DNA of 50,565 bases from Thermodesulfobacteriaceae bacterium. Its GTDB lineage: Bacteria; Desulfobacterota; Thermodesulfobacteria; Thermodesulfobacteriales; Thermodesulfatatoraceae. The position numbers and the translations under genes were made by a program. Positions within the stretch are counted from its first letter, which is position 1, and each line of letters begins with the position of its first letter. The notes beneath the pieces are model-generated. The model was not told where the DNA came from. It saw only the letters and a list, made by a program, of their open reading frames with translations, and made no database searches. The stretch is from NCBI GenBank assembly GCA_015494065.1, contig WGCA01000059.1:1-50565 (forward strand), given 5' to 3'. This document shows positions 26,628-44,383 of this stretch, piece after piece.

Positions 26628-26957
26628 ATGGGGGCGCCACAGGCAGCCTATACCTTTACCCCCCAGGAAAGGATAAAGCGCACCAGAGCGCGCAGTTTTT
26701 CCCTTTTCCAGTATCTTTCTCTGATTCTTTTCGGGGTGTTATTGCTGTTGGTAGCGGTGGGAGGGATCATCATTTACCAGCAATACCGTTTTTACCTGAA
26801 ATTAGAGCATGAGATCGCCACCTTGAGCCAACAAAAGGCCCTATTGGACCAGCGTTACCAAAAATTGACCACCCGGGAGGTGGTTATCAAAAAGGCCAAA
26901 CTTCTGGGGCTCCATCCGCCCCGTAAGGATCAAATCGTGGAGCTGGAGCTTAAGTAA
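26628..26957 (+). CDS. ftsL: FtsL-like cell division protein
   Basis: A 109-residue bitopic protein: a short basic cytoplasmic part, one membrane helix (LILFGVLLLLVAVGGIII, about residues 32-50) and a periplasmic coiled coil (LEHEIATLSQQKALLDQRY). It ends with VIKKAKLLGLHPPRKDQIVEL, the usual FtsL/FtsB-type ending. The position between rsmH and the ftsI-like gene supports FtsL. GGAGG precedes the ATG. FtsL normally binds FtsB/FtsQ and activates the FtsW-FtsI pair, which is of interest here because that pair seems missing. Confidence 0.85.
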   Translation: MGAPQAAYTFTPQERIKRTRARSFSLFQYLSLILFGVLLLLVAVGGIIIYQQYRFYLKLEHEIATLSQQKALLDQRYQKLTTREVVIKKAKLLGLHPPRKDQIVELELK

Positions 26958-26959
26958 AG

Positions 26960-28327
26960 ATGAAGCGGGCCCTTTTTTTCATCTTGGTCTTTTTCTGCGG
27001 AGCCGCCTTTTTAGGGGTGGGTTCAGGTGGCTCCCGTCCCTTATCCCAAAGACAGGAGCTTGGGGCCTCTACCCTTAAAGGGCGGGTGTACGACGCCGAA
27101 AGACGACTTTTGGCCTATTCTGAGGAGAAGAGGGGTTTTATCCTGCTTCCCCAGGTCTTCAACCCTTCTCAGGAAAACCTTTCCCGGCTGGCCGCATTTA
27201 CCGGGAAGAGCAGAGAAGAGCTGACCTTACTCCTTGCCACCGCAGAGGCCCCTATCTTTTTAGGGGCGCCAGCCAAAGAGCCACCTCAGCTTAAGGGCCT
27301 GTTTTGGCAGTCCTATACCGAGAGGCAATACCCTTATGGGCCGCTTTTTGCCGCCTTTTTGGGTACTACGGAAAAGGAAGGGCCCCTTGAGGCCTATTAC
27401 CAAAAGATATTGGCCCGGGATGGCAGTTTTCTGCGCACCGCGGTGAAGGTAGAGTTTCAAAAAGCGTTATCCAGGGACCTCCTGCGGGCCCTCAAGCGGT
27501 TGCACGCCCGGGCAGGGTGCGCGGTGGTCTTGGATTTATCATCGGGCCGGATTAAGGCCTTGGTTAGCACGGGGGTCGAAGACCTGCTGCTGGCCCCTGA
27601 GCTCAGGCTTTCCTGGGTGGGATCTCCCTTCGAAGAGGCCTATTACGACAGCATGTATGAGGGGTTGACCTCCTTTTTGAGGGCCCTAGGGTTTGGGGAA
27701 CCCACCGGTATTGATCTGCCCGGGGAAAGTCCCGGGATCATGCCCCCTGAGGTTTCCTCCCTGGACGAGGTACGCCCCTCTCTCCTGCAAACGGTAAGGG
27801 CCTTAGCAGCCCTGCGTACGGGAAAAATTGTTTCCCCCAAACTTGGGGTGGAAGCGGGCCTTTCCCGGAAGGAAAAATATTTGATTAACGTGGAGACGGA
27901 AGAACTCGAAGACCTGGTTCCGCGGGAAAAAGGTGGGGTTTGGTGGTACGGGGGCAGCAGAAAGGCCGGGGTTTTCCTGATGATCGGGCTTTGGCCGCGG
28001 AAAGACCCCACCTTGGCCTTCGGGCTCTACGCCAAAGGGGTGAGGGCCTGGGGCCTTCCCTGTTATTACACCCGCTTCATCCCCCAGGCGGTGAAAGTGA
28101 TGGCGGCGGATTTAAAATCGCCCTCAGGGCGACCAAAAAGGGCAGCCCGCTCTCACAGGGCCCGGATGCCGAACCTACACGGTCTAACCCTTAAAGCGGC
28201 CCTGGAAAAGTTGGTCCCCCTAGGGCTTGAGGTCCATTTTTCCGGCTTTGGGGTTACGGTAAAACAGTGGCCCGCGCCCGGGACCCCGCTTAAAGGGATA
28301 AAAGATTGCCGTTTGGTTCTCAGGTGA
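26960..28327 (+). CDS. FtsI-position penicillin-binding protein homologue lacking all catalytic motifs (PASTA tail)
   Basis: 455 residues, over 100 shorter than a usual FtsI. It has a membrane/signal helix (ALFFILVFFCGAAFLGV), a PBP dimerisation-type N-terminal region (TLKGRVYDAERRLLAYS), a start of the transpeptidase fold (AVVLDLSSGRIKALVS), then jumps within ~50 residues to GFGEPTGIDLPGESPG. In FtsI the SxxK and SxN motifs lie in the missing stretch. The KTG(T/S) site is replaced by REKGGVWWYGGSRKAG. A C-terminal PASTA domain follows (MPNLHGLTLKAALEKL...). Reading frame and operon overlaps are intact, so it looks like a maintained pseudoenzyme with a structural role in division, not a decaying gene. 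Confidence 0.85.
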   Translation: MKRALFFILVFFCGAAFLGVGSGGSRPLSQRQELGASTLKGRVYDAERRLLAYSEEKRGFILLPQVFNPSQENLSRLAAFTGKSREELTLLLATAEAPIFLGAPAKEPPQLKGLFWQSYTERQYPYGPLFAAFLGTTEKEGPLEAYYQKILARDGSFLRTAVKVEFQKALSRDLLRALKRLHARAGCAVVLDLSSGRIKALVSTGVEDLLLAPELRLSWVGSPFEEAYYDSMYEGLTSFLRALGFGEPTGIDLPGESPGIMPPEVSSLDEVRPSLLQTVRALAALRTGKIVSPKLGVEAGLSRKEKYLINVETEELEDLVPREKGGVWWYGGSRKAGVFLMIGLWPRKDPTLAFGLYAKGVRAWGLPCYYTRFIPQAVKVMAADLKSPSGRPKRAARSHRARMPNLHGLTLKAALEKLVPLGLEVHFSGFGVTVKQWPAPGTPLKGIKDCRLVLR

Positions 28328-29763
28328 TGAAACTAAAAGACCTAGTTTTTGACTTAAAGCCCAAAAAGATCTGGGGGGGTGAGACGGAAATCACCTACCT
28401 CACCGAAGATTCCCGGGAGGTAAAACCGGGGGCGGCTTTTGTGGCGGTAAAGGGGGCGCGGTTTGACGGGCACCAGTTTATCCCCGAAGCCGTAAGAAGG
28501 GGTGCCAGCGCCGTGATCATGGAGGAAGAAGTGCCGCTGCCCGAAGGGGTGGCCGGGGCCCTCTTGGAGGACACTAAGCAAACACTTCCCTTGCTGGCGG
28601 GTCGCTTTTTCGGCTGGCCGGAAAAAGGACTTTCTTTAATCGGGATCACCGGCACTAACGGAAAGACTTCCGTGGCCTTCTTTACCAGACATCTCCTTAA
28701 CAGGCTCGCCGGTGCAACCGGGCTTATCGGCACCATCCATTACGACCTCATAGGTGAGCGCCTTTCCGCCTCTCACACCACCCCAGGGCCGGTCAAGTTG
28801 CGTGCCCTTTTGGCGGAAATGAAGGCCCAAGGGGCGGAATACGCGGTCATGGAAGTCTCTTCCCATTCCCTGGACCAGGGGCGGGTAGCTGGCCTTTCCT
28901 TTAAAGTGGCGGTGTTTACCAATCTTTCCCGGGATCACCTGGATTACCACGGCGATATGGAGCGTTATTTCGCCGCCAAAAAGAGACTTTTTACCGAACA
29001 CCTTTCCGCCCAGGGCAAGGCGGTAATCAACGTTGCCGATCCGTGGGGAGAAAAACTGGCCGCTTCACTCACTAAGCCCGTGATTAAGGTAGGGGAGGAA
29101 ATAAGGGGGATGGTCCTTAAGAGGGCTTGGGACGGCTACGTTTTTCTCCTCCGGGCCGGAACCCAGGAGTATCCCTTGGCGACGACCCTTTACGGAGATT
29201 TTCAGCTGGAAAATCTCCTCCTTGCTTGCTCGGTTGGCCTTGCCCTGGGTTTCCCTTTTTCGGAGGTGGTACGAGCGCTTGAAGGGGTGCAGGCCCCTCC
29301 GGGGCGGCTTGAACTGGTGGCGGAAAAGGAAGGGGCCCTGGTCTTTGTGGATTACGCTCACACCCCTTCGGCCTTGGAGACCGCCCTTAAAAGTTTAAGG
29401 CCTCTGGCCCGCAGGCTGCTAGTGGTCTTTGGCTGCGGAGGGGAAAGGGACCAGGGTAAACGTCCGCTTATGGGGCAGGTGGCCGAAAAGTTGGCCGATC
29501 AAGTAATTTTGACCAACGACAACCCCCGCCGGGAGGACCCCCAGAAGATCATTCGGGATATCCGGGCTGGTATGCACCAAACTCCCCTCGTAATTGAGGA
29601 CCGCAAGGAGGCCATCGGCCGGGCCCTTTCTCTTCTTAAGGAGGGTGATATACTCCTAGTCGCCGGCAAGGGCCACGAAACTTATCAGGAGATAGCGGGC
29701 CGACGTTATCCTTTTTCGGACCAGCAGGTGATCAGGAGTTTTATGGCCAGGGAGGCGGCATGA
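28327..29763 (+). CDS. murE: UDP-MurNAc-tripeptide synthetase (meso-DAP type)
   Basis: A 478-residue Mur ligase adding the third residue of the stem peptide. The ATP loop is GITGTNGKTSVAFFTR, SSHSLDQGRV follows, and the amino-acid-binding signature LTNDNPRREDP contains DNPR, which marks meso-diaminopimelate addition. The start overlaps the upstream stop (TGATG). The longer frame from 28306 has no support. It overlaps murF by four bases. It acts in the cytoplasm. Confidence 0.95.
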   Translation: MKLKDLVFDLKPKKIWGGETEITYLTEDSREVKPGAAFVAVKGARFDGHQFIPEAVRRGASAVIMEEEVPLPEGVAGALLEDTKQTLPLLAGRFFGWPEKGLSLIGITGTNGKTSVAFFTRHLLNRLAGATGLIGTIHYDLIGERLSASHTTPGPVKLRALLAEMKAQGAEYAVMEVSSHSLDQGRVAGLSFKVAVFTNLSRDHLDYHGDMERYFAAKKRLFTEHLSAQGKAVINVADPWGEKLAASLTKPVIKVGEEIRGMVLKRAWDGYVFLLRAGTQEYPLATTLYGDFQLENLLLACSVGLALGFPFSEVVRALEGVQAPPGRLELVAEKEGALVFVDYAHTPSALETALKSLRPLARRLLVVFGCGGERDQGKRPLMGQVAEKLADQVILTNDNPRREDPQKIIRDIRAGMHQTPLVIEDRKEAIGRALSLLKEGDILLVAGKGHETYQEIAGRRYPFSDQQVIRSFMAREAA

Positions 29764-32206: not shown

Positions 32207-33598
32207 ATGTTAGAGGGCAAACTTAGAGGCCGCAAAGTGGTAGTCATGGGGTTTGGCCGTTCCGGGCAGGCCGCCTTGAGGCTCCTTTTGGTGTTGGGGG
32301 CCCGGGTGGTGGTCTCGGAGGCCAGGCCGCGGGAAAAGTTATCCGCCTCCCTTGTTAGGAATTTTGAGGAACAGGGAGTGGTTTTCGAAACCGGTGGGCA
32401 CCGTCCAGAGACCTTGACCCAGGCAGACCTGGTGGTGGTGAGCCCCGGGGTGCCCCGCCAGCAGTACGCCCCGGCGCTTGCCAAGGGGATCCCGGTTTGG
32501 GGTGAGTTGGAGCTGGCCTTTCGCTTTCTAACCCCCACCAAAAAGGTGATCGCCATCACCGGCACCAACGGCAAGACCACTACCACCGCTATGGTTACGG
32601 ATATTTTGCGCCTTTCGGGGCAACGGGTCTTTGTGGGCGGCAATTACGGGACCCCTCTTTCTGAATTTTTGCTGACCGGGGAGAAGGCGGAGGTGGTGGT
32701 CCTTGAGGTCTCCAGTTTTCAGCTTGAGACCATTGAGACCTTCCGCCCCAAAGTGGCGGTCATCTTAAACATCACTCCGGATCACCTGGAGCGTTACCGG
32801 GATTTTGAGGAATACGCGCTGGCCAAGGCCCGGATTTACGAAAATCAAAAGGCCGATGATTTCGTCATCCTGCCTGAAAAACTGCCCACCCCCCTTCCAT
32901 TCCCCCACGGGAAGGTCTTTTTCTTCGGCCACGAGACCAAGATTGGGGCCCGGCTGACCCCGGGCGGCTTTTTCCTCCAGTGGGAAGAGGAGAGGGAATT
33001 TTATTCTTTTGTAGGGTTCAAACCCCTTGGGGAACATAACCGCTTAAACTTTGCGGTGGCAGCCCTTGCGGCCCGTCTGGCCGGAGCCACCAAGGATGGG
33101 GTGCAGGAGGCAGTACGGGCCTTTGTGGGTTTTCCTCACCGGCTGGAATTTATAGGGAGTTTCGGAGGGGTGTATTTCGTTAACGATTCCAAGGCCACCA
33201 ACGTGGACGCCACGGTAAAGGCGCTTGAAGGCCTCTCAGCCCCCATCGTGCTTATCATGGGAGGGCAGCACAAGGGAGGTTCTTACCGCCCCCTGCTCTC
33301 CCTGGTCAAGGAAAAGGTGCGGTTACTCATTCTGATGGGGGAGTCCCGCTACCTGATGGCGGAAGATTTAGGAGGGGTAGTGGAGACCAAAATAGTGGAA
33401 AACCTCGAAGAGGCGGTGGCGGTGGCCATTTCAGAGGCCAGGGTAGGGGATACCGTGCTCCTTTCCCCTGCGGCGGCTAGTTTTGATCAGTTTGAAAATT
33501 ACCAAGAGCGGGGGGACGTTTTCCGCGAGCTGGTCCTGGGTTACGCCCCGCAATTTTTGGGGGAAGATAACCGGACCCAGCTCATAACTTACCACTGA
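32207..33598 (+). CDS. murD: UDP-MurNAc-L-alanine:D-glutamate ligase
   Basis: A 463-residue MurD. Motifs: VVVMGFGRSGQAALR, SPGVP, ATP loop AITGTNGKTTTTAM, VLEVSSFQLETI, HRLEFIGSFGGVYFVNDSKATN and the ending LLSPAAASFDQFENYQERG. It ends in TGA sharing one base with the murG ATG. In most dcw clusters ftsW stands between murD and murG; here there is no room for it. Confidence 0.96.
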   Translation: MLEGKLRGRKVVVMGFGRSGQAALRLLLVLGARVVVSEARPREKLSASLVRNFEEQGVVFETGGHRPETLTQADLVVVSPGVPRQQYAPALAKGIPVWGELELAFRFLTPTKKVIAITGTNGKTTTTAMVTDILRLSGQRVFVGGNYGTPLSEFLLTGEKAEVVVLEVSSFQLETIETFRPKVAVILNITPDHLERYRDFEEYALAKARIYENQKADDFVILPEKLPTPLPFPHGKVFFFGHETKIGARLTPGGFFLQWEEEREFYSFVGFKPLGEHNRLNFAVAALAARLAGATKDGVQEAVRAFVGFPHRLEFIGSFGGVYFVNDSKATNVDATVKALEGLSAPIVLIMGGQHKGGSYRPLLSLVKEKVRLLILMGESRYLMAEDLGGVVETKIVENLEEAVAVAISEARVGDTVLLSPAAASFDQFENYQERGDVFRELVLGYAPQFLGEDNRTQLITYH

Positions 33599-34662
33599 TG
33601 AGGATGATTATCGCCGGCGGAGGTACCGGAGGACATCTTTTTCCCGCCCTGGCCCTGGCGGAGGCCGTACGGGCCAGGGGAGGGGAAGTGCTTCTTCTGG
33701 GCAGTGGTCGTCAGATAGAAAGGATGGCCCTGGCCAAGGGGCCTTACCCCGTTAAGTTTTTGCCGACCGAAGGGGTGGCGGGGCGCAATTTCTTGGGAAA
33801 GGCTAGGGCCCTGGCAAAGCTCTTGTGGGCCACGTGGAAGGCCTTCGTGATCTTGCGCACCTTTGAGCCTCAGCTGGTCTTCGGGGTAGGGGGCTACGCC
33901 TCTTTGCCTTCCCTCCTGGCCGCCAGGTTAAGGGGGGTGAAGGCTGCCATTCACGAACAGAACGCTTTGCCCGGCCGGGCCAATCTGTTTTTGGCCAGGC
34001 TAGTCCACCGTATCTTTGTTACCTTCCCTTCCTCGGCGTCGTATTTTCCCCGGCAAAAGGTGGTGGTTTCGGGGATGCCCATAAGGGGGGAGGTGCGCAA
34101 GGAATATCCCCGGGAGCATGAGGGTCTTGGCCTGCTGGTCACCGGGGGCAGCCAGGGGGCCCGTTTTTTAAATAAACTCTTCGTTTCCCTGGCCCCGGAG
34201 CTAGCCAGAGTCCCCGGACTTTACCTAATCCACCAGACTGGGCCCCGGGATTACGAGTGGGTGCAGGCGGCCTACCGCAGGGCAGGCCTTGAGGCCGAGG
34301 TCAGACCTTTTATCACGGAGATGGGATGGGCCTACGCCCAGGCGGATCTCGTGGTCTGTCGGGCCGGGGCAGCCACCGTGGCCGAACTCTGCCTTTTGAA
34401 AAAACCGGCCATCCTGGTCCCTTATCCCTTCGCCATAAACGACCACCAGACGGCCAACGCTCAGTTTCTGGTAAGGGCCGGGGGAGCGGTTATGTGGCGT
34501 GAGGAAGAGATAGAACCGGCCCCGTTTAAGGAGACCCTGCTCAATCTCCTCCAGGACCACCGGCGCCTGAGGGTGATGGCACGAAATTTGGAAAATCTCC
34601 TTCCAGAAGACGCGCTAGCTATTATTCTCAGAGAGACGGAGGCTTTGGTGGCCCATGTTTAA
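33598..34662 (+). CDS. murG: Lipid II synthase (MurG GlcNAc transferase)
   Basis: A 354-residue GT28 transferase that adds GlcNAc to lipid I at the inner membrane face. Motifs: IIAGGGTGGHLFPALALAE, GVGGYASLPSLLAA, HEQNALPGRAN, LLVTGGSQGARFLN and CRAGAATVAELCLLKKPAILVPYP (broken here into CRAGAATVAEL and PAILVPYPFA). It overlaps murD by one base and murC by eight. Length is normal. Confidence 0.96.
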   Translation: MRMIIAGGGTGGHLFPALALAEAVRARGGEVLLLGSGRQIERMALAKGPYPVKFLPTEGVAGRNFLGKARALAKLLWATWKAFVILRTFEPQLVFGVGGYASLPSLLAARLRGVKAAIHEQNALPGRANLFLARLVHRIFVTFPSSASYFPRQKVVVSGMPIRGEVRKEYPREHEGLGLLVTGGSQGARFLNKLFVSLAPELARVPGLYLIHQTGPRDYEWVQAAYRRAGLEAEVRPFITEMGWAYAQADLVVCRAGAATVAELCLLKKPAILVPYPFAINDHQTANAQFLVRAGGAVMWREEEIEPAPFKETLLNLLQDHRRLRVMARNLENLLPEDALAIILRETEALVAHV

Positions 34663-36052: not shown

Positions 36053-36942
36053 AGAAAAGATTTGTCAAACCCAAAAATTTGGGCCTTTCCGTTAAAGAGA
36101 TGGTCTCTTTGAGCCATTACACCACCTTTAAGGTGGGAGGGCCCGTTGACCTCTTCTTTGAACCCGAGAACATCTGGGAACTGGCCAGGGTTTGTACCTT
36201 TTTAGAGGAAGAGGGTATCCCCAAATTTTTGCTTGGGGGAGGAAGTAACCTCTTAGTCCGCGACGGTGGGGTGCGGGGAGCCTGCCTTTCGCTGAGAAAG
36301 TTGCGCGGCTTTGAGGTACAGGGTGAGGAACTCTGGGTGGAAGCAGGTCTTTCCCTCAAATCCCTCCTGGATCTATGTGTGCAACATGGTCTTTCAGGGC
36401 TTGAATTTTTAAGCGGGGTGCCGGCCACGGTGGGTGGGGCGGTGGCCATGAACGCCGGGGCTTTTGGCTTTGAGATAAAAGATTTTTTGACCCAGGTGAC
36501 CCTCCTTATGCAGGGGCGCTTCGTCACCCGGCCCCGGGATAGTCTGGCCTTTTCTTACCGGGGCCTTGGCCTGCCTAAAGGGGCGGTGGTGGTGGCGGCG
36601 AGATTCAGACTTAGCCGCCGCACCCCACAGGAAGTGCGGGAGAAGCTCTCTTTTTACCTTAAAGAGCGTCGCCGGCGCCAGCCCCTTTCTTTCCCCTCAG
36701 CCGGATGTGTGTTTAAGAATCCCGGCCAAGTGGCCGCGGGCTACCTTATTGAAGCCGCGGGTCTTAAAGGTTTTAGCCGGGGTGGGGCGCAAATTTCGCG
36801 CAAACACGCCAATTTTATCATTAACCGGGGCAGGGCCCGGGCAGATGATATCTTGTTTCTGGTAGACTTGGTTAAAGAAGAGGTCTTTCGTCAATTCGGC
36901 CTGGAACTTGAAGAGGAGATCAAAATTGTGGGCGAGGCTTAG
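36049..36942 (+). CDS. murB: UDP-N-acetylenolpyruvoylglucosamine reductase
   Basis: A 297-residue FAD enzyme that reduces enolpyruvyl-UDP-GlcNAc to UDP-MurNAc. Motifs: TTFKVGGPVDLFFEP, LLGGGSNLLVRDGG, FLSGVPATVGGAVAMNAGAFG, FSYRGLGLPKG and the catalytic SAGCVFKNPG, then HANFIINRG. It overlaps murC by four bases. MurA is not in the window. Confidence 0.95.
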   Translation: MKKRFVKPKNLGLSVKEMVSLSHYTTFKVGGPVDLFFEPENIWELARVCTFLEEEGIPKFLLGGGSNLLVRDGGVRGACLSLRKLRGFEVQGEELWVEAGLSLKSLLDLCVQHGLSGLEFLSGVPATVGGAVAMNAGAFGFEIKDFLTQVTLLMQGRFVTRPRDSLAFSYRGLGLPKGAVVVAARFRLSRRTPQEVREKLSFYLKERRRRQPLSFPSAGCVFKNPGQVAAGYLIEAAGLKGFSRGGAQISRKHANFIINRGRARADDILFLVDLVKEEVFRQFGLELEEEIKIVGEA

Positions 36943-37696
36943 GTCAGGCTTAACAATGGTGGCCATTTTGGCGGTTTTGGCCGGGGGGATCGCCGCCTCC
37001 CGGCTTATCAAGACCAGCCCCTATTTTCGGCTCCAAAAGATCCAGGTCGAATTAAAGGGAGCCCGGTTTTTGGATAAGGCTAAGATTATCAAGCTTTCCG
37101 GGCTGGTTCTGGGGCAGAACCTTTTTGAAATTGACCTTGACCAGGTCAAAAACCGGCTGGAGCAAGACCCCTGGGTGGCGGAAGTCTTTGTCGCCCGTAA
37201 ATATCCCGATACCATTTATTTAAAGGCCTGTGAGGAAAACCCCGTGGCCATGGTGGCTACCCCGAAAGGGATCTGGCTGGTGAACCGGAAGGGGGTCCTT
37301 TTTGCGCGGGCCCCACACCAGCTCCTTAAGGAGCTGCCGGCCCTGGTGGGGCTTTCTAAAGAAGAAATCAAAAGGCGCCGCCTTTCAGTCAGCCGGAGTG
37401 CCGCCCTTGACCTGCTTGCCTGGCTTAAAGAAAAAGAGGACGTGGTCCCCCCTTACGCCAATATTTCCCAGCTCAAATTTGAACCGGATGGTTTCTGGCT
37501 GCTTACGCGGGATGCCCTGCGGATCAGATTTAGCGGCAACACAGCACAAGAGCTTAGGCAGGCTTACCGCAAGCTAGATTGTATCTTGGTCTATCTATAT
37601 GAAACAAACCAATACGCGCGGGTTAAGGCGATCCGACTGGATTACCCCGCTGATAAAGCGGCTTTTGCTTTTAAAAAAGCCAGGAGAAAGAGCTAG
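36926..37696 (+). CDS. ftsQ: Cell division protein FtsQ
   Basis: A bitopic division protein of about 256 residues. A membrane helix (MVAILAVLAGGIAASRLI) is followed by a POTRA domain (FRLQKIQVELKGARFL; LSGLVLGQNLFEID; LEQDPWVAEVFVARKYPDT) and an FtsQ beta domain. The start is uncertain: TTG 36926 has GAGGAG seven bases upstream and overlaps murB by 17 bases; TTG 36908 and ATG 36956 are alternatives. FtsQ links the FtsL/FtsB complex to the septum. ftsA begins on the next base after its stop. Confidence 0.9.
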   Translation: MWARLRSGLTMVAILAVLAGGIAASRLIKTSPYFRLQKIQVELKGARFLDKAKIIKLSGLVLGQNLFEIDLDQVKNRLEQDPWVAEVFVARKYPDTIYLKACEENPVAMVATPKGIWLVNRKGVLFARAPHQLLKELPALVGLSKEEIKRRRLSVSRSAALDLLAWLKEKEDVVPPYANISQLKFEPDGFWLLTRDALRIRFSGNTAQELRQAYRKLDCILVYLYETNQYARVKAIRLDYPADKAAFAFKKARRKS

Positions 37697-38890
37697 ATGA
37701 TCGTAGGGCTTGACGTGGGCACCACCAAGGTCTGTTGCCTGGTGGCGGAAGAGATAGAAGACGAGCTCCGGGTCTTGGGCCTGGGGCTGGCCCACGCCAC
37801 GGGGCTTAGGCGTGGGGTGGTGGTCAACATTGAAAGCACGGTAAGTGCCATCGTGGAGGCCGTGCGCCAGGCCGAAGAGGCCTGCGGCGAAGAAATAAGG
37901 GAGGTTATCGTTGGTATCGCTGGCACCCATATCCGCAGCCAGCAGAGCCACGGCGTCATCGCCCTAAGAAACGGGGAAGTGACCCCGGAAGACGTAGACA
38001 AAGTAATAGAAGCGGCCCGGGCCATTAATCTCCCTAACGACCGCCTTATTCTGCACGCCATCCCCCAGGAATATATCGTGGATGAGCAGGGTGGTATCGA
38101 ACAGCCGGTGGGGATGAGTGGGGTGCGGCTTGAGGTAAAGGTCCACCTGATCACGGCGGCGGCCTCGGCGGTGCACAATCTAGTCAAGTGTGTGGAGAAG
38201 GCGGGGCTTGCCGTAGAGGCAGTGGTGCTTCAGCCCTTAGCCTCAGCGGAGGCGGTACTCACCGAGGAGGAAAAACAACTGGGAGTGGCCCTCATAGACT
38301 TCGGCGGTGGCACCACGGACGTGGCGGTTTTCCTAGAAGGGACCCTGCGTCATACCGGGGCCGTTGGGGTAGGGGGGCAGATCCTTACCAGTGATCTCAC
38401 CGTCGGGCTCAGGACCACCATGTCCGCGGCCGAAAGGCTGAAAGTGCACTACGGCTGCTGTCTGGCCCCGATGGTGCCGCGGGAAGAATATATCGAGGTA
38501 CCGGGGCTGGGAAACCGTCCGGCCCGGAAGTTGTCCCGCCAGGTCCTGGCTGAAATCCTTGAGCCGCGGGTGGAAGAGCTTTTGGAGATCATCAACACGG
38601 AACTTGAGCGGTCGGGGCTTAAGCCCCGTTTGGGCTCAGGGGCGGTGATTACCGGAGGTTCAGCCCTGCTTCCGGGCTTGATCGAAATGGCGGATCAGAT
38701 CTTTGAATTACCTACTCGCATAGGTTATCCGCGTAAGCTCTCGGGGCTTTCTGAAGAGGTCTATCATCCGCGCCTGGCCACCGCGGTAGGGCTGGTGCTT
38801 TTTGGGCGCAACCTGGGGGCGGAGCGCCCGCGTAGTTCCCCTAAAAATCCCTTTAAAAAAATTCTGGAATTTTTCGGGAGGGGATTATGA
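37697..38890 (+). CDS. ftsA: Cell division protein FtsA
   Basis: A 397-residue actin-like ATPase that tethers FtsZ to the membrane. Motifs: [18 protein letters not shown] (phosphate 1), the SHMA/1C-domain region ([19 protein letters not shown]), [15 protein letters not shown] (phosphate 2) and [13 protein letters not shown]. The C-terminus [14 protein letters not shown] is the amphipathic membrane-binding helix. It overlaps ftsZ by four bases, so membrane attachment of the ring appears intact in this organism. Confidence 0.97.
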
Positions 38891-40047
38891 GCTTTGAATT
38901 CGTAGAAACCGACCACCAGGCCAAGATCAAAGTCATCGGCGTGGGCGGAGCTGGTGGTAACGCCGTCAAAAACATGATCAGCAAGGGCCTTAAAGGGGTA
39001 GAGTTTATCGTGGCCAATACGGACTACCGGGTGCTCGACCTTTCCCCCGCCCCGCTAAAGATTCAGCTCGGCAAGGAGTTGACCAAGGGGCTGGGGGCCG
39101 GGGGCAACCCGGAAGTGGGTAAAGAGGCGGCCCTTGAGGCGGAAGAGGAAATAAGACAGGCCCTGGCCGGGGCGGACATGGTTTTTATCACCGCCGGTCT
39201 CGGTGGGGGTACGGGGACCGGAGCGGCCCCGATTATCGCCCGCATCAGTAAGGAACTCGGGGCCTTGACCGTAGCGGTGGTGACCAAACCCTTCAGCTTT
39301 GAAGGGCGCCCCAGGGCCAAAGTAGCGGAAAAGGGCCTTCAGGAACTACGTCGGGAAGTGGACACCATTATTACGATTCCTAACGATCGCTTGAGGGCCT
39401 TGGCCTCGCCCAAGGCCAAACTCCTTGACATGTTTAAACAGGCCGACGACGTACTCTATTATGCGGTGCGGGGTATTTCAGACCTCATCCTCTTTCCCGG
39501 TTACGTCAACCTTGACTTTGCTGACGTCCGGGCGGTGATGAGTGAGATGGGGATGGCGCTGATGGGGACCGGGGTCGCTAGTGGAGAAAACCGTGCCGAA
39601 GAAGCGGCGCAGATGGCTATTTCAAGCCCGCTCCTGGATGACGTTTCCATCGCCGGGGCCCGAGGGGTACTCTTAAATATTACGGCTTCCGCCGAGACCC
39701 TTACCATGGAAGAGACGGAATACATTTCCGAGCTGGTTTCCAAAGAGGCCCACGAAGAGGCCAAAATCTTCTGGGGCGTGGTTTTTGACGAAGAGGCCGG
39801 GGAAGAGCTGCGGGTCACCGTGGTGGCTACGGGGATCGGGGCCAAAGAAGAGACGGCTCCGGCTGAGCTGGCGGAGCCAGTCCTTACCGAGGAACTTTCG
39901 CAAAAGGTGGAAAAGATCGCCCCGCATCTTGAGCGGAAGAAGGAGGTCAGGCCTCCGTTACGCAAGAAAGGGCCGCGAATTTTAGACCGGCTTCCTTCCG
40001 AAGAGGAACTGGAGATCCCGGCCTTCTTAAGACGTAAGGCCGATTAA
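38887..40047 (+). CDS. ftsZ: Cell division protein FtsZ
   Basis: A 386-residue tubulin-like GTPase. Motifs: [26 protein letters not shown], the tubulin signature [12 protein letters not shown] (about residues 105-115) and the T7 loop region [12 protein letters not shown] linker of ~50 residues ends in [12 protein letters not shown], the conserved peptide that binds FtsA. It is the last gene of the operon, and its stop overlaps the convergent DUF3135 gene. Confidence 0.98.
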
Positions 40048-42864: not shown

Positions 42865-42889
42865 GCGCGCGTAAAGATACGTGCTTTTT

Positions 42890-42916
42890 AAAGGGGGAGC
42901 TCAGGCTCCCCCTTTT
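42890..42916 (+). terminator. Rho-independent terminator after the cytochrome gene
   Basis: AAAGGGGGAGC-TCAG-GCTCCCCCTTTT: an 8-bp GC stem with A/T extension and a T-rich tail, 26 bases after the cytochrome stop. Confidence 0.88.
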
Positions 42917-42958
42917 CATTTTGGCAAGAATCATTTATTAAAGCCGTGGAGGGAAAAG

Positions 42959-44383
42959 ATGGGAGAAAGAGCAGACCTGCTTCGTCAAATTCCGGCGGTC
43001 CATGAACTGGCAGAGGCCCTGCGCCAAAAATTTCCCAAAACCCCGGAAAGGCTCATCACCGCCGCGGCCCGCAACGCCACTGATACCCTGCGGCGCGAAA
43101 TCCTGGAGGGAAAGAGAAAAGAGCTTTCCCGGGAAGAGGCCCTCACCCGGGCGGAAAGTTTCCTTGTCCAGAAGCTCCGACCCAACCTCAGGCGGGTCAT
43201 CAACGCCACCGGGGTGGTGGTGCACACCAATCTTGGCCGCTCCCTCCTGCCCCAGGAAGCGGTGGAGGCCGTAAAAGAGATAGCCACCCGCTATTCCAAC
43301 CTGGAATTTGACCTCAAGACCGGCAAGAGGGGGAGCCGTTACGTCCACGTAGAAGAGATCCTCCTTGAGCTCACCGGGGCTGAGGCGGCTTTAGTGGTCA
43401 ACAACAACGCCGCCGCCGTCCTCCTGACCCTCAACACGCTGGCGGCAGGCAAAGAAGTGATTGTTTCCCGGGGCGAACTGGTGGAAATCGGGGGTTCTTT
43501 TCGGATTCCTGACGTGATGGCCCGCTCCGGGGCCATTTTGCGCGAAGTGGGGGCCACTAACCGCACCCACCTGAGAGATTACGAAGCGGCGATTAACGAA
43601 AACACGGCCCTTTTGATGAAAGTCCACAAGAGCAATTACGCCATCGTGGGCTTTACCAAAGAAGTCTCCGGCAAAGAGCTGGTTGAACTGGGCCGCCGCT
43701 ACGGTCTGACCGTGGTAGAAGATTTAGGCAGCGGCTGTTTTGTTGATTTTTCCCGCTACGGGCTGCCGAAAGAACCCACGGTCCAGGAGGTTCTGGCCAC
43801 CGGGGTGGACGTGGTGACTTTCTCCGGTGACAAGCTCCTGGGCGGGCCCCAGGCGGGACTTATCCTGGGTCGTAAGGAACCGGTAGCAGCCATCAGGAAA
43901 AACCCCCTTAACCGGGCGGTGAGGATTGACAAGATGACTTTGGCGGCCCTGGAGGCCGTGCTTGCCCTTTATCGGGACGAGACCGAGGCGATAAGCAAAA
44001 TCCCCACCCTTGCCATGATTACTAAAAGACCGGAGGAGATCAGAAAAGAGGCCCTGCGCCTGAAACGACGTCTCAAAAAGGTGTTGCCTCAGGACGTAAC
44101 CCTTCAGGTGGTGGAGACCATCTCCCGGGTGGGAGGCGGGGCTTTACCTCTGGCCAGCCCTAAGTCTTACGCGGTGGCCCTTAAAAGCCCTCGGATTTCG
44201 GCCGCGGCGCTAGAAGAGGCCTTGAGGCGTGCCTCACCTCCCATAATCGCCCGGATAGAAGAAGATACCCTGCTCCTTGATCTGCGTACCGTCTTACCCG
44301 TGGAACACCCCGAAATCTTGGCGGCGTTGACCAAAATCTTTAACGAGGCCGGTGGTGACAGCTCTTACCCCGTGGACCATTGA
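42959..44383 (+). CDS. selA: L-seryl-tRNA(Sec) selenium transferase
   Basis: A 474-residue PLP enzyme converting Ser-tRNA(Sec) to Sec-tRNA(Sec) with selenophosphate. The start MGERADLLRQIPAVHELAE follows GGAGGG. Family motifs: RVINATGVVVHTNLGRS, LELTGAEAALVVNNNAAAV, GSFRIPDVM, VGATNRTH and the PLP lysine in FSGDKLLGGPQAG (near residue 294). It shows that the organism makes selenoproteins. selB, selC and selD are not in the window. Its end overlaps the TPR gene by 32 bases. Confidence 0.96.
   Translation: MGERADLLRQIPAVHELAEALRQKFPKTPERLITAAARNATDTLRREILEGKRKELSREEALTRAESFLVQKLRPNLRRVINATGVVVHTNLGRSLLPQEAVEAVKEIATRYSNLEFDLKTGKRGSRYVHVEEILLELTGAEAALVVNNNAAAVLLTLNTLAAGKEVIVSRGELVEIGGSFRIPDVMARSGAILREVGATNRTHLRDYEAAINENTALLMKVHKSNYAIVGFTKEVSGKELVELGRRYGLTVVEDLGSGCFVDFSRYGLPKEPTVQEVLATGVDVVTFSGDKLLGGPQAGLILGRKEPVAAIRKNPLNRAVRIDKMTLAALEAVLALYRDETEAISKIPTLAMITKRPEEIRKEALRLKRRLKKVLPQDVTLQVVETISRVGGGALPLASPKSYAVALKSPRISAAALEEALRRASPPIIARIEEDTLLLDLRTVLPVEHPEILAALTKIFNEAGGDSSYPVDH

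Follow-up and report, generated by a model that had tools for sequence, protein, structure and literature searches.

A class B penicillin-binding protein relative without a catalytic site is retained at the FtsI locus of Thermodesulfobacteriales, in genomes lacking FtsW

To our knowledge, FtsW and FtsI are regarded as universally essential synthases of the septal wall, the known exception being represented by clostridia. C. difficile divides without FtsW and FtsI, using the class A penicillin-binding protein (PBP) PBP1 as synthase (PMC10693644); its class B protein PBP3 has a role in the divisome, independent of its own catalysis, and co-precipitates with PBP1 (PMC12154710). Closer to the bacteria considered here, a single clause of PMC8871954 mentions the loss of ftsW from the Thermodesulfobacteria cluster, and a passage of PMC7873302 describes its absence in four Desulfobulbaceae, with septal peptidoglycan ascribed to FtsI activity; a catalytic loss of FtsI is reported in neither passage. 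A search of the freely available literature returned no report of a catalytically dead FtsI in these groups, nor of a coupling between the loss of FtsW and the death of FtsI. These two points appear to be new, ftsW being already known to be missing from the cluster.

The window analyzed here is a stretch of 50,565 nucleotides, corresponding to contig WGCA01000059.1 of a Thermodesulfobacteriaceae bacterium. Within its dcw cluster, the ORF at 26960-28327 starts with ATG, contains no internal stops and lies between ftsL and murE, the position of FtsI, a class B PBP to which the encoded protein belongs by descent. Its start follows the ftsL stop after a gap of 2 nt, and its TGA overlaps the murE ATG (TGATG, 28325-28329). 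An earlier sequence-only reading had described an FtsI-position protein devoid of SxxK, SxN and KTG, encoded by an intact frame coupled to murE: both descriptions were confirmed. The gene, indicated as pseudo-ftsI, its parts and its neighbours are reported below, where "f" followed by a number designates a family.

26960..28327, + strand: pseudo-ftsI gene, encoding a class B PBP relative of 455 aa that lacks SxxK, SxN and KTG
26966..27019, + strand: N-terminal membrane-anchor helix, residues 3-20 (AlphaFold helix 3-20; hydrophobic stretch)
27065..27439, + strand: remnant of the anchor/pedestal domain, residues ~36-160 (PBP_dimer match; SpoVD/FtsI alignment; structural match)
27440..28123, + strand: transpeptidase core, reduced in size, residues ~161-388 (residues 37-388 match SpoVD with Z 29)
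27587..27694, + strand: junction missing the SxxK/SxN active-site segment, residues 210-245 (~36 aa vs 125 in 7rcz)
27689..27727, + strand: GFGEPTGIDLPGE turn, kept, residues 244-256
27926..27946, + strand: EKGGVWW, at the place expected for the KTG strand, residues 323-329 (GGxWW conserved in f1; AlphaFold strand 324-333)
28163..28324, + strand: probable C-terminal PASTA domain, residues ~402-455
26628..26957, + strand: ftsL, FtsL/DivIC-like, 109 aa (weak PF04977/PF19579 matches and position)
28327..29763, + strand: murE, overlapping the pseudo-ftsI stop codon
32207..33598, + strand: murD, with murG directly after and ftsW absent between them
33598..34662, + strand: murG, immediately preceded by a SEDS gene in the control clusters that bear FtsW
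36908..37696, + strand: ftsQ
37697..38890, + strand: ftsA
38887..40047, + strand: ftsZ (orthologues in the compared clusters)

The division genes ftsL, ftsQ, ftsA and ftsZ are all retained in place in the cluster. We take a further ORF of the window, at 42881-44383, to resemble selA (selenocysteine synthase).

When pseudo-FtsI was analyzed by Pfam, the PBP_dimer domain was found (E=1.2e-5), along with a Transpeptidase match (E=8e-6) covering only positions 119-186 of the 299 in the profile; PASTA scored 21.8 bits (cut-off 23.2), with profile matches to the PBP2x C-terminal region. From the end of a strand at residue ~210 to the FGEPTGIDLPGE turn at residue 245 there are about 36 residues, against 125 in SpoVD (7rcz), which bears out the proposed deletion of the stretch carrying SxxK and SxN. 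A HMM was built from the 31 intact FtsI described below: none of its seven catalytic columns receives an aligned residue of pseudo-FtsI. The SxxK columns, occupied by S and K in 31/31 controls, are empty, and SxN and KTG are both missing in the same alignment. Two SxxK strings, at residues 37 and 54, fall in the N-terminal region and were discarded as due to chance. EKGGVWW overlaps the AlphaFold strand 324-333, which, in the model, is likely the KTG strand.

The AlphaFold model of the protein, obtained from 12 sequences (mean pLDDT 83), features Z scores of 26-29 to SpoVD, PBP3 and PBP2x, about 28 for PBP3. SpoVD 7rcz is the best match by both structure (Z 29.0, 350 residues aligned, spanning 37-388) and sequence (E 6.8e-17). 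The membrane anchor and the pedestal are present, as indicated by the PBP_dimer match, the helix at residues 3-20 and the structure match starting at residue 37. As far as the model predicts, the fold of a class B PBP is retained, with the exception of the active-site segment. The ftsL-murE locus, the membrane anchor, the pedestal and the transpeptidase fold are common to pseudo-FtsI and FtsI/PBP3, and the probable PASTA tail resembles that of many FtsI of the phylum; what distinguishes pseudo-FtsI from FtsI/PBP3 is the lack of the three motifs and of the FtsW partner, and the reduction of the active-site segment from 125 to 36 residues. C. difficile SpoVD, in contrast, is catalytic, has SpoVE as partner and plays a role in sporulation.

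Orthologues were found by genome search in nine further genomes of the same family, with 42-96% identity (one of the nine being only a fragment, cut by the end of its contig), and, with weaker matches, in sister families; Thermodesulfatator and Thermosulfurimonas are among the named records, and the closest counterpart, 96% identical, comes from a Thermodesulfatator atlanticus MAG. In 36 out of 36 more genomes of Thermodesulfobacteriales, for which the dcw cluster was fetched, the gene is in frame and immediately upstream of murE; no frameshift was found in the orthologues read across the order. The longest, of 522 aa, is found in f2; the length is ~450-475 aa in f1 and ~380-390 aa in part of f3, and the shortest forms, of ~290-340 aa, occur in Thermodesulfobacterium-type genera, which have lost PASTA and most of the transpeptidase. 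An assembly error or a recent mutation is rejected, because the same motif-less state is shared by the nine family genomes and by sister families, several of them in single-contig assemblies. The dN/dS ratio of pseudo-ftsI is 0.09-0.22 (NG86, seven pairs), resembling that of ftsL and ftsQ and mostly above that of mraY or ftsA. Over 16 orthologues from f1-f3, 28 residues are invariant, many of them within PASTA, which is the best conserved region in f1 and part of f3. Pseudo-ftsI is under purifying selection despite lacking the catalytic site; the description as a selected pseudoenzyme is supported by both the retention throughout the order and the dN/dS values.

The loss of FtsW, missed by the sequence-only reading, is the key to the case. 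ftsW is missing from the dcw cluster of the window and, by SEDS profile search, from the same genome. murD is followed by murG, without an intervening gene, in every dcw cluster of the order showing that junction, as in the window. A single SEDS protein (PF01098) is present in 40 of the 41 genomes of the order; in the remaining one, G035, one SEDS protein is split across two contigs. The lone SEDS gene of these genomes adjoins mrdA (PBP2), and in the window's own genome it lies within mreB-mreC-mreD-mrdA-rodA. MreB is present in 39 of the 41 genomes; an f2 genome also encodes a second, diverged MreB-family protein (G010:C1:871923-872882). When SEDS proteins were placed in a tree, those found singly in 35 FtsW-less genomes clustered with the RodA proteins that adjoin PBP2 in two-SEDS genomes, and were separated from 28 FtsW encoded in dcw clusters (SH-aLRT 100). 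This placement excludes that the lone SEDS is a relocated FtsW: the cognate SEDS partner of pseudo-FtsI is absent, the only SEDS of the genome belonging to the RodA clade.

Transpeptidase matches (PF00905) occur at three places only in the own genome, so that a second FtsI elsewhere is excluded. Besides pseudo-FtsI they correspond to PBP2, adjoining RodA (motifs STFK, SCD, KTG), and to one class A PBP, PBP1A (SALK, SRN, KTGT). That no other PF00905 transpeptidases are present supports the view of the sequence-only reading, in which septal cross-linking is done by another enzyme. Nearly every genome of the order has one class A PBP. In G030 (f3; dcw locus L127), a 99% complete draft, no match to PF00912 (GT51) and none to a class A PBP was found, the PF00905 set consisting of PBP2 and a DacA-type enzyme only. 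If the absence of GT51 is real, RodA-PBP2 may be the only peptidoglycan polymerase of G030, and the class A PBP is therefore possibly dispensable within the order.

Other proteins of this kind were noted in the order. Weak PF00905 matches in Thermodesulfobacterium-type genomes, considered as possible SxxK-bearing remnants of FtsI, turned out to be DacA-type carboxypeptidases encoded outside dcw. For three f3 genera (g5, g6, g9), the C-terminal tails of DacA-type carboxypeptidases are long and rich in Lys, and a monofunctional GT51 glycosyltransferase (~275-330 aa) is found beside the class A PBP in many genomes.

The relation between the two losses was evaluated over the phylum. Of 247 genomes with completeness of at least 90%, most contain two SEDS proteins, and several families are consistently single-SEDS. 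Among 28 single-SEDS genomes from outside the order, for 25 the SEDS domain lies at most about 300 bp from the PBP2 domain, and for the remaining three, from f18 and f83, inside the dcw cluster. The dcw clusters were read for 27 of the 28, and those of 28 two-SEDS genomes were fetched as controls. f18 and f83 served as controls too, because they retain FtsW in dcw and an intact FtsI; G043 and G073, having two SEDS and intact motifs, are also counted among the controls. All dcw FtsI from FtsW-bearing genomes (31/31) show S, K, S, N, K, T and G at the seven catalytic columns, while the complete set is found in none of the 48 from FtsW-less genomes, 24 of which lie outside the order and come from 12 families. 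The nearest to intact among the latter, those of f17, have E and G in the two SxxK columns, with KTG replaced by P-A-G. FtsW loss and FtsI death are therefore coupled, within one phylum represented in part by draft genomes. One of the FtsW-less genomes, from f73, was assembled as one contig of 3,097,763 bp; it agrees with the absence of ftsW described for Desulfobulbaceae in the passage of PMC7873302.

A concatenated tree (mraY, murD, murG, murC, murE; 77 genomes) requires, in its best form, three changes in FtsW state; grouping all FtsW-less genomes as one clade is not rejected (AU p=0.243). The losses of FtsW are one to three, and their independence is not claimed, because the AU test permits a single clade. 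The pieces of FtsI kept vary among lineages. In f17 and f73 the protein is nearly full length; most of the large group keeps the pedestal, the first transpeptidase strand, the GFG-TGIDLPGE region and PASTA; Thermodesulfobacterium-type genera keep the anchor and the pedestal, PASTA being missing, as it is in f28. The FtsI of f24 and f53, of 248-318 aa, consists of a membrane anchor, an unassigned middle part and PASTA, with an unrecognisable pedestal. Since different pieces are retained, no single interaction surface is common to all lineages.

Two features of the compared loci may be added. In f53 and f24 (L220, L232, L234, L235, L240), the middle part of the short FtsI is possibly what is left of the transpeptidase, in helical form, and the parts kept are nearly the opposite of those kept in Thermodesulfobacterium-type genera. 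In f14, f54, f64, f75 and f80 (L224, L226, L228, L236, L237, L238, L239, L241), murE and murF apparently form one fused frame of ~980-1050 aa.

With FtsW gone and the catalytic centre of FtsI lost, division in these cells must depend on another builder of the wall. The simplest reading of a protein that is anchored, encoded in the ftsL operon, selected and inactive is that of a non-catalytic subunit of the divisome, the septum being built by RodA-PBP2, by the single class A PBP or by both; we consider this function, deduced from the genomes, probable, although the lack of an interaction surface common to all lineages weighs against it. Without FtsW, septal peptidoglycan would no longer be cross-linked by FtsI; pseudo-FtsI would stay, anchored in the membrane, to connect FtsL/FtsQ with the synthases that remain, and would aid the recruitment or activation of RodA-PBP2 and/or the class A PBP at mid-cell. 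A putative scaffold role for FtsL/FtsQ is plausible. That pseudo-FtsI retains transpeptidase activity, through a nucleophile at a new position, is extremely improbable: the model does keep the transpeptidase fold, but the entire active-site segment is missing, the catalytic columns are empty and no serine is invariant in the alignment of 16 orthologues. The frame might also be kept only for the translational coupling of ftsL to murE, the protein itself being functionless, as the stop-start overlap with murE and the stepwise shortening across the order, from 522 to ~290 aa, could indicate; dN/dS values like those of ftsL and ftsQ, the 28 invariant residues, many of them in PASTA, and the lack of frameshifts in all orthologues read make this quite unlikely. 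Binding of lipid II or nascent peptidoglycan through PASTA, as the main role, would fit the conservation of this domain in f1 and part of f3, and the fact that it is nearly all that is recognisable in f24/f53. Such sensing, suggested by the sequence-only reading, loses weight as a general role, since PASTA is lacking from the orthologues retained in Thermodesulfobacterium-type genera and f28, and we judge it improbable.

For the non-catalytic subunit, the identity of the septal synthase is left between two routes, which are rated equal. PBP1A may make the septum, with pseudo-FtsI as a divisome-bound regulator and RodA-PBP2 confined to elongation: this C. difficile-type arrangement, which we hold tentatively, at somewhat below even chances, is favoured by the single class A PBP of nearly all genomes of the order, carrying all its motifs in the own copy, and by the same division of labour in C. 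difficile, where a class B PBP works non-catalytically in a class A complex (PMC10693644, PMC12154710), while G030, devoid of GT51 and class A matches, speaks against it. Alternatively, one RodA-PBP2 pair may serve both elongation and septation, steered by FtsZ/FtsA/FtsL/FtsQ and pseudo-FtsI, a route to which we give the same tentative credit: genomes of the order contain no other SEDS-transpeptidase pair, and in G030 RodA-PBP2 is apparently the only peptidoglycan polymerase, but RodA-PBP2 of C. difficile elongates and does not divide (PMC10693644), and the pedestal, the expected contact with SEDS, is unrecognisable in f24/f53. The widest form of this route, in which septation free of FtsWI arose repeatedly in the phylum, each time with a dead FtsI kept structurally and RodA-PBP2 performing elongation and division, as sole polymerase in at least one lineage (G030), appears doubtful, and we rate it as rather unlikely.

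The likeness to the C. difficile divisome is in the absence of canonical FtsW/FtsI and the presence of RodA-PBP2 with one class A PBP, and in a class B PBP acting without catalysis (PMC10693644, PMC12154710), as pseudo-FtsI probably would. C. difficile, however, has dcw-encoded SpoVE/SpoVD active in sporulation and misses FtsA, whereas Thermodesulfobacteriales keep FtsA, and it is their dcw class B PBP itself that has no active site. Gene lists calling this locus FtsI (peptidoglycan D,D-transpeptidase) assign a wrong activity to whole families. A large, mostly heat-loving clade of sulfur bacteria features FtsZ and FtsA, with FtsW absent and FtsI present only as a pseudoenzyme: a natural experiment, in which the structural role of FtsI is split from its chemistry, and which makes a testable question of who builds the septum without FtsWI.
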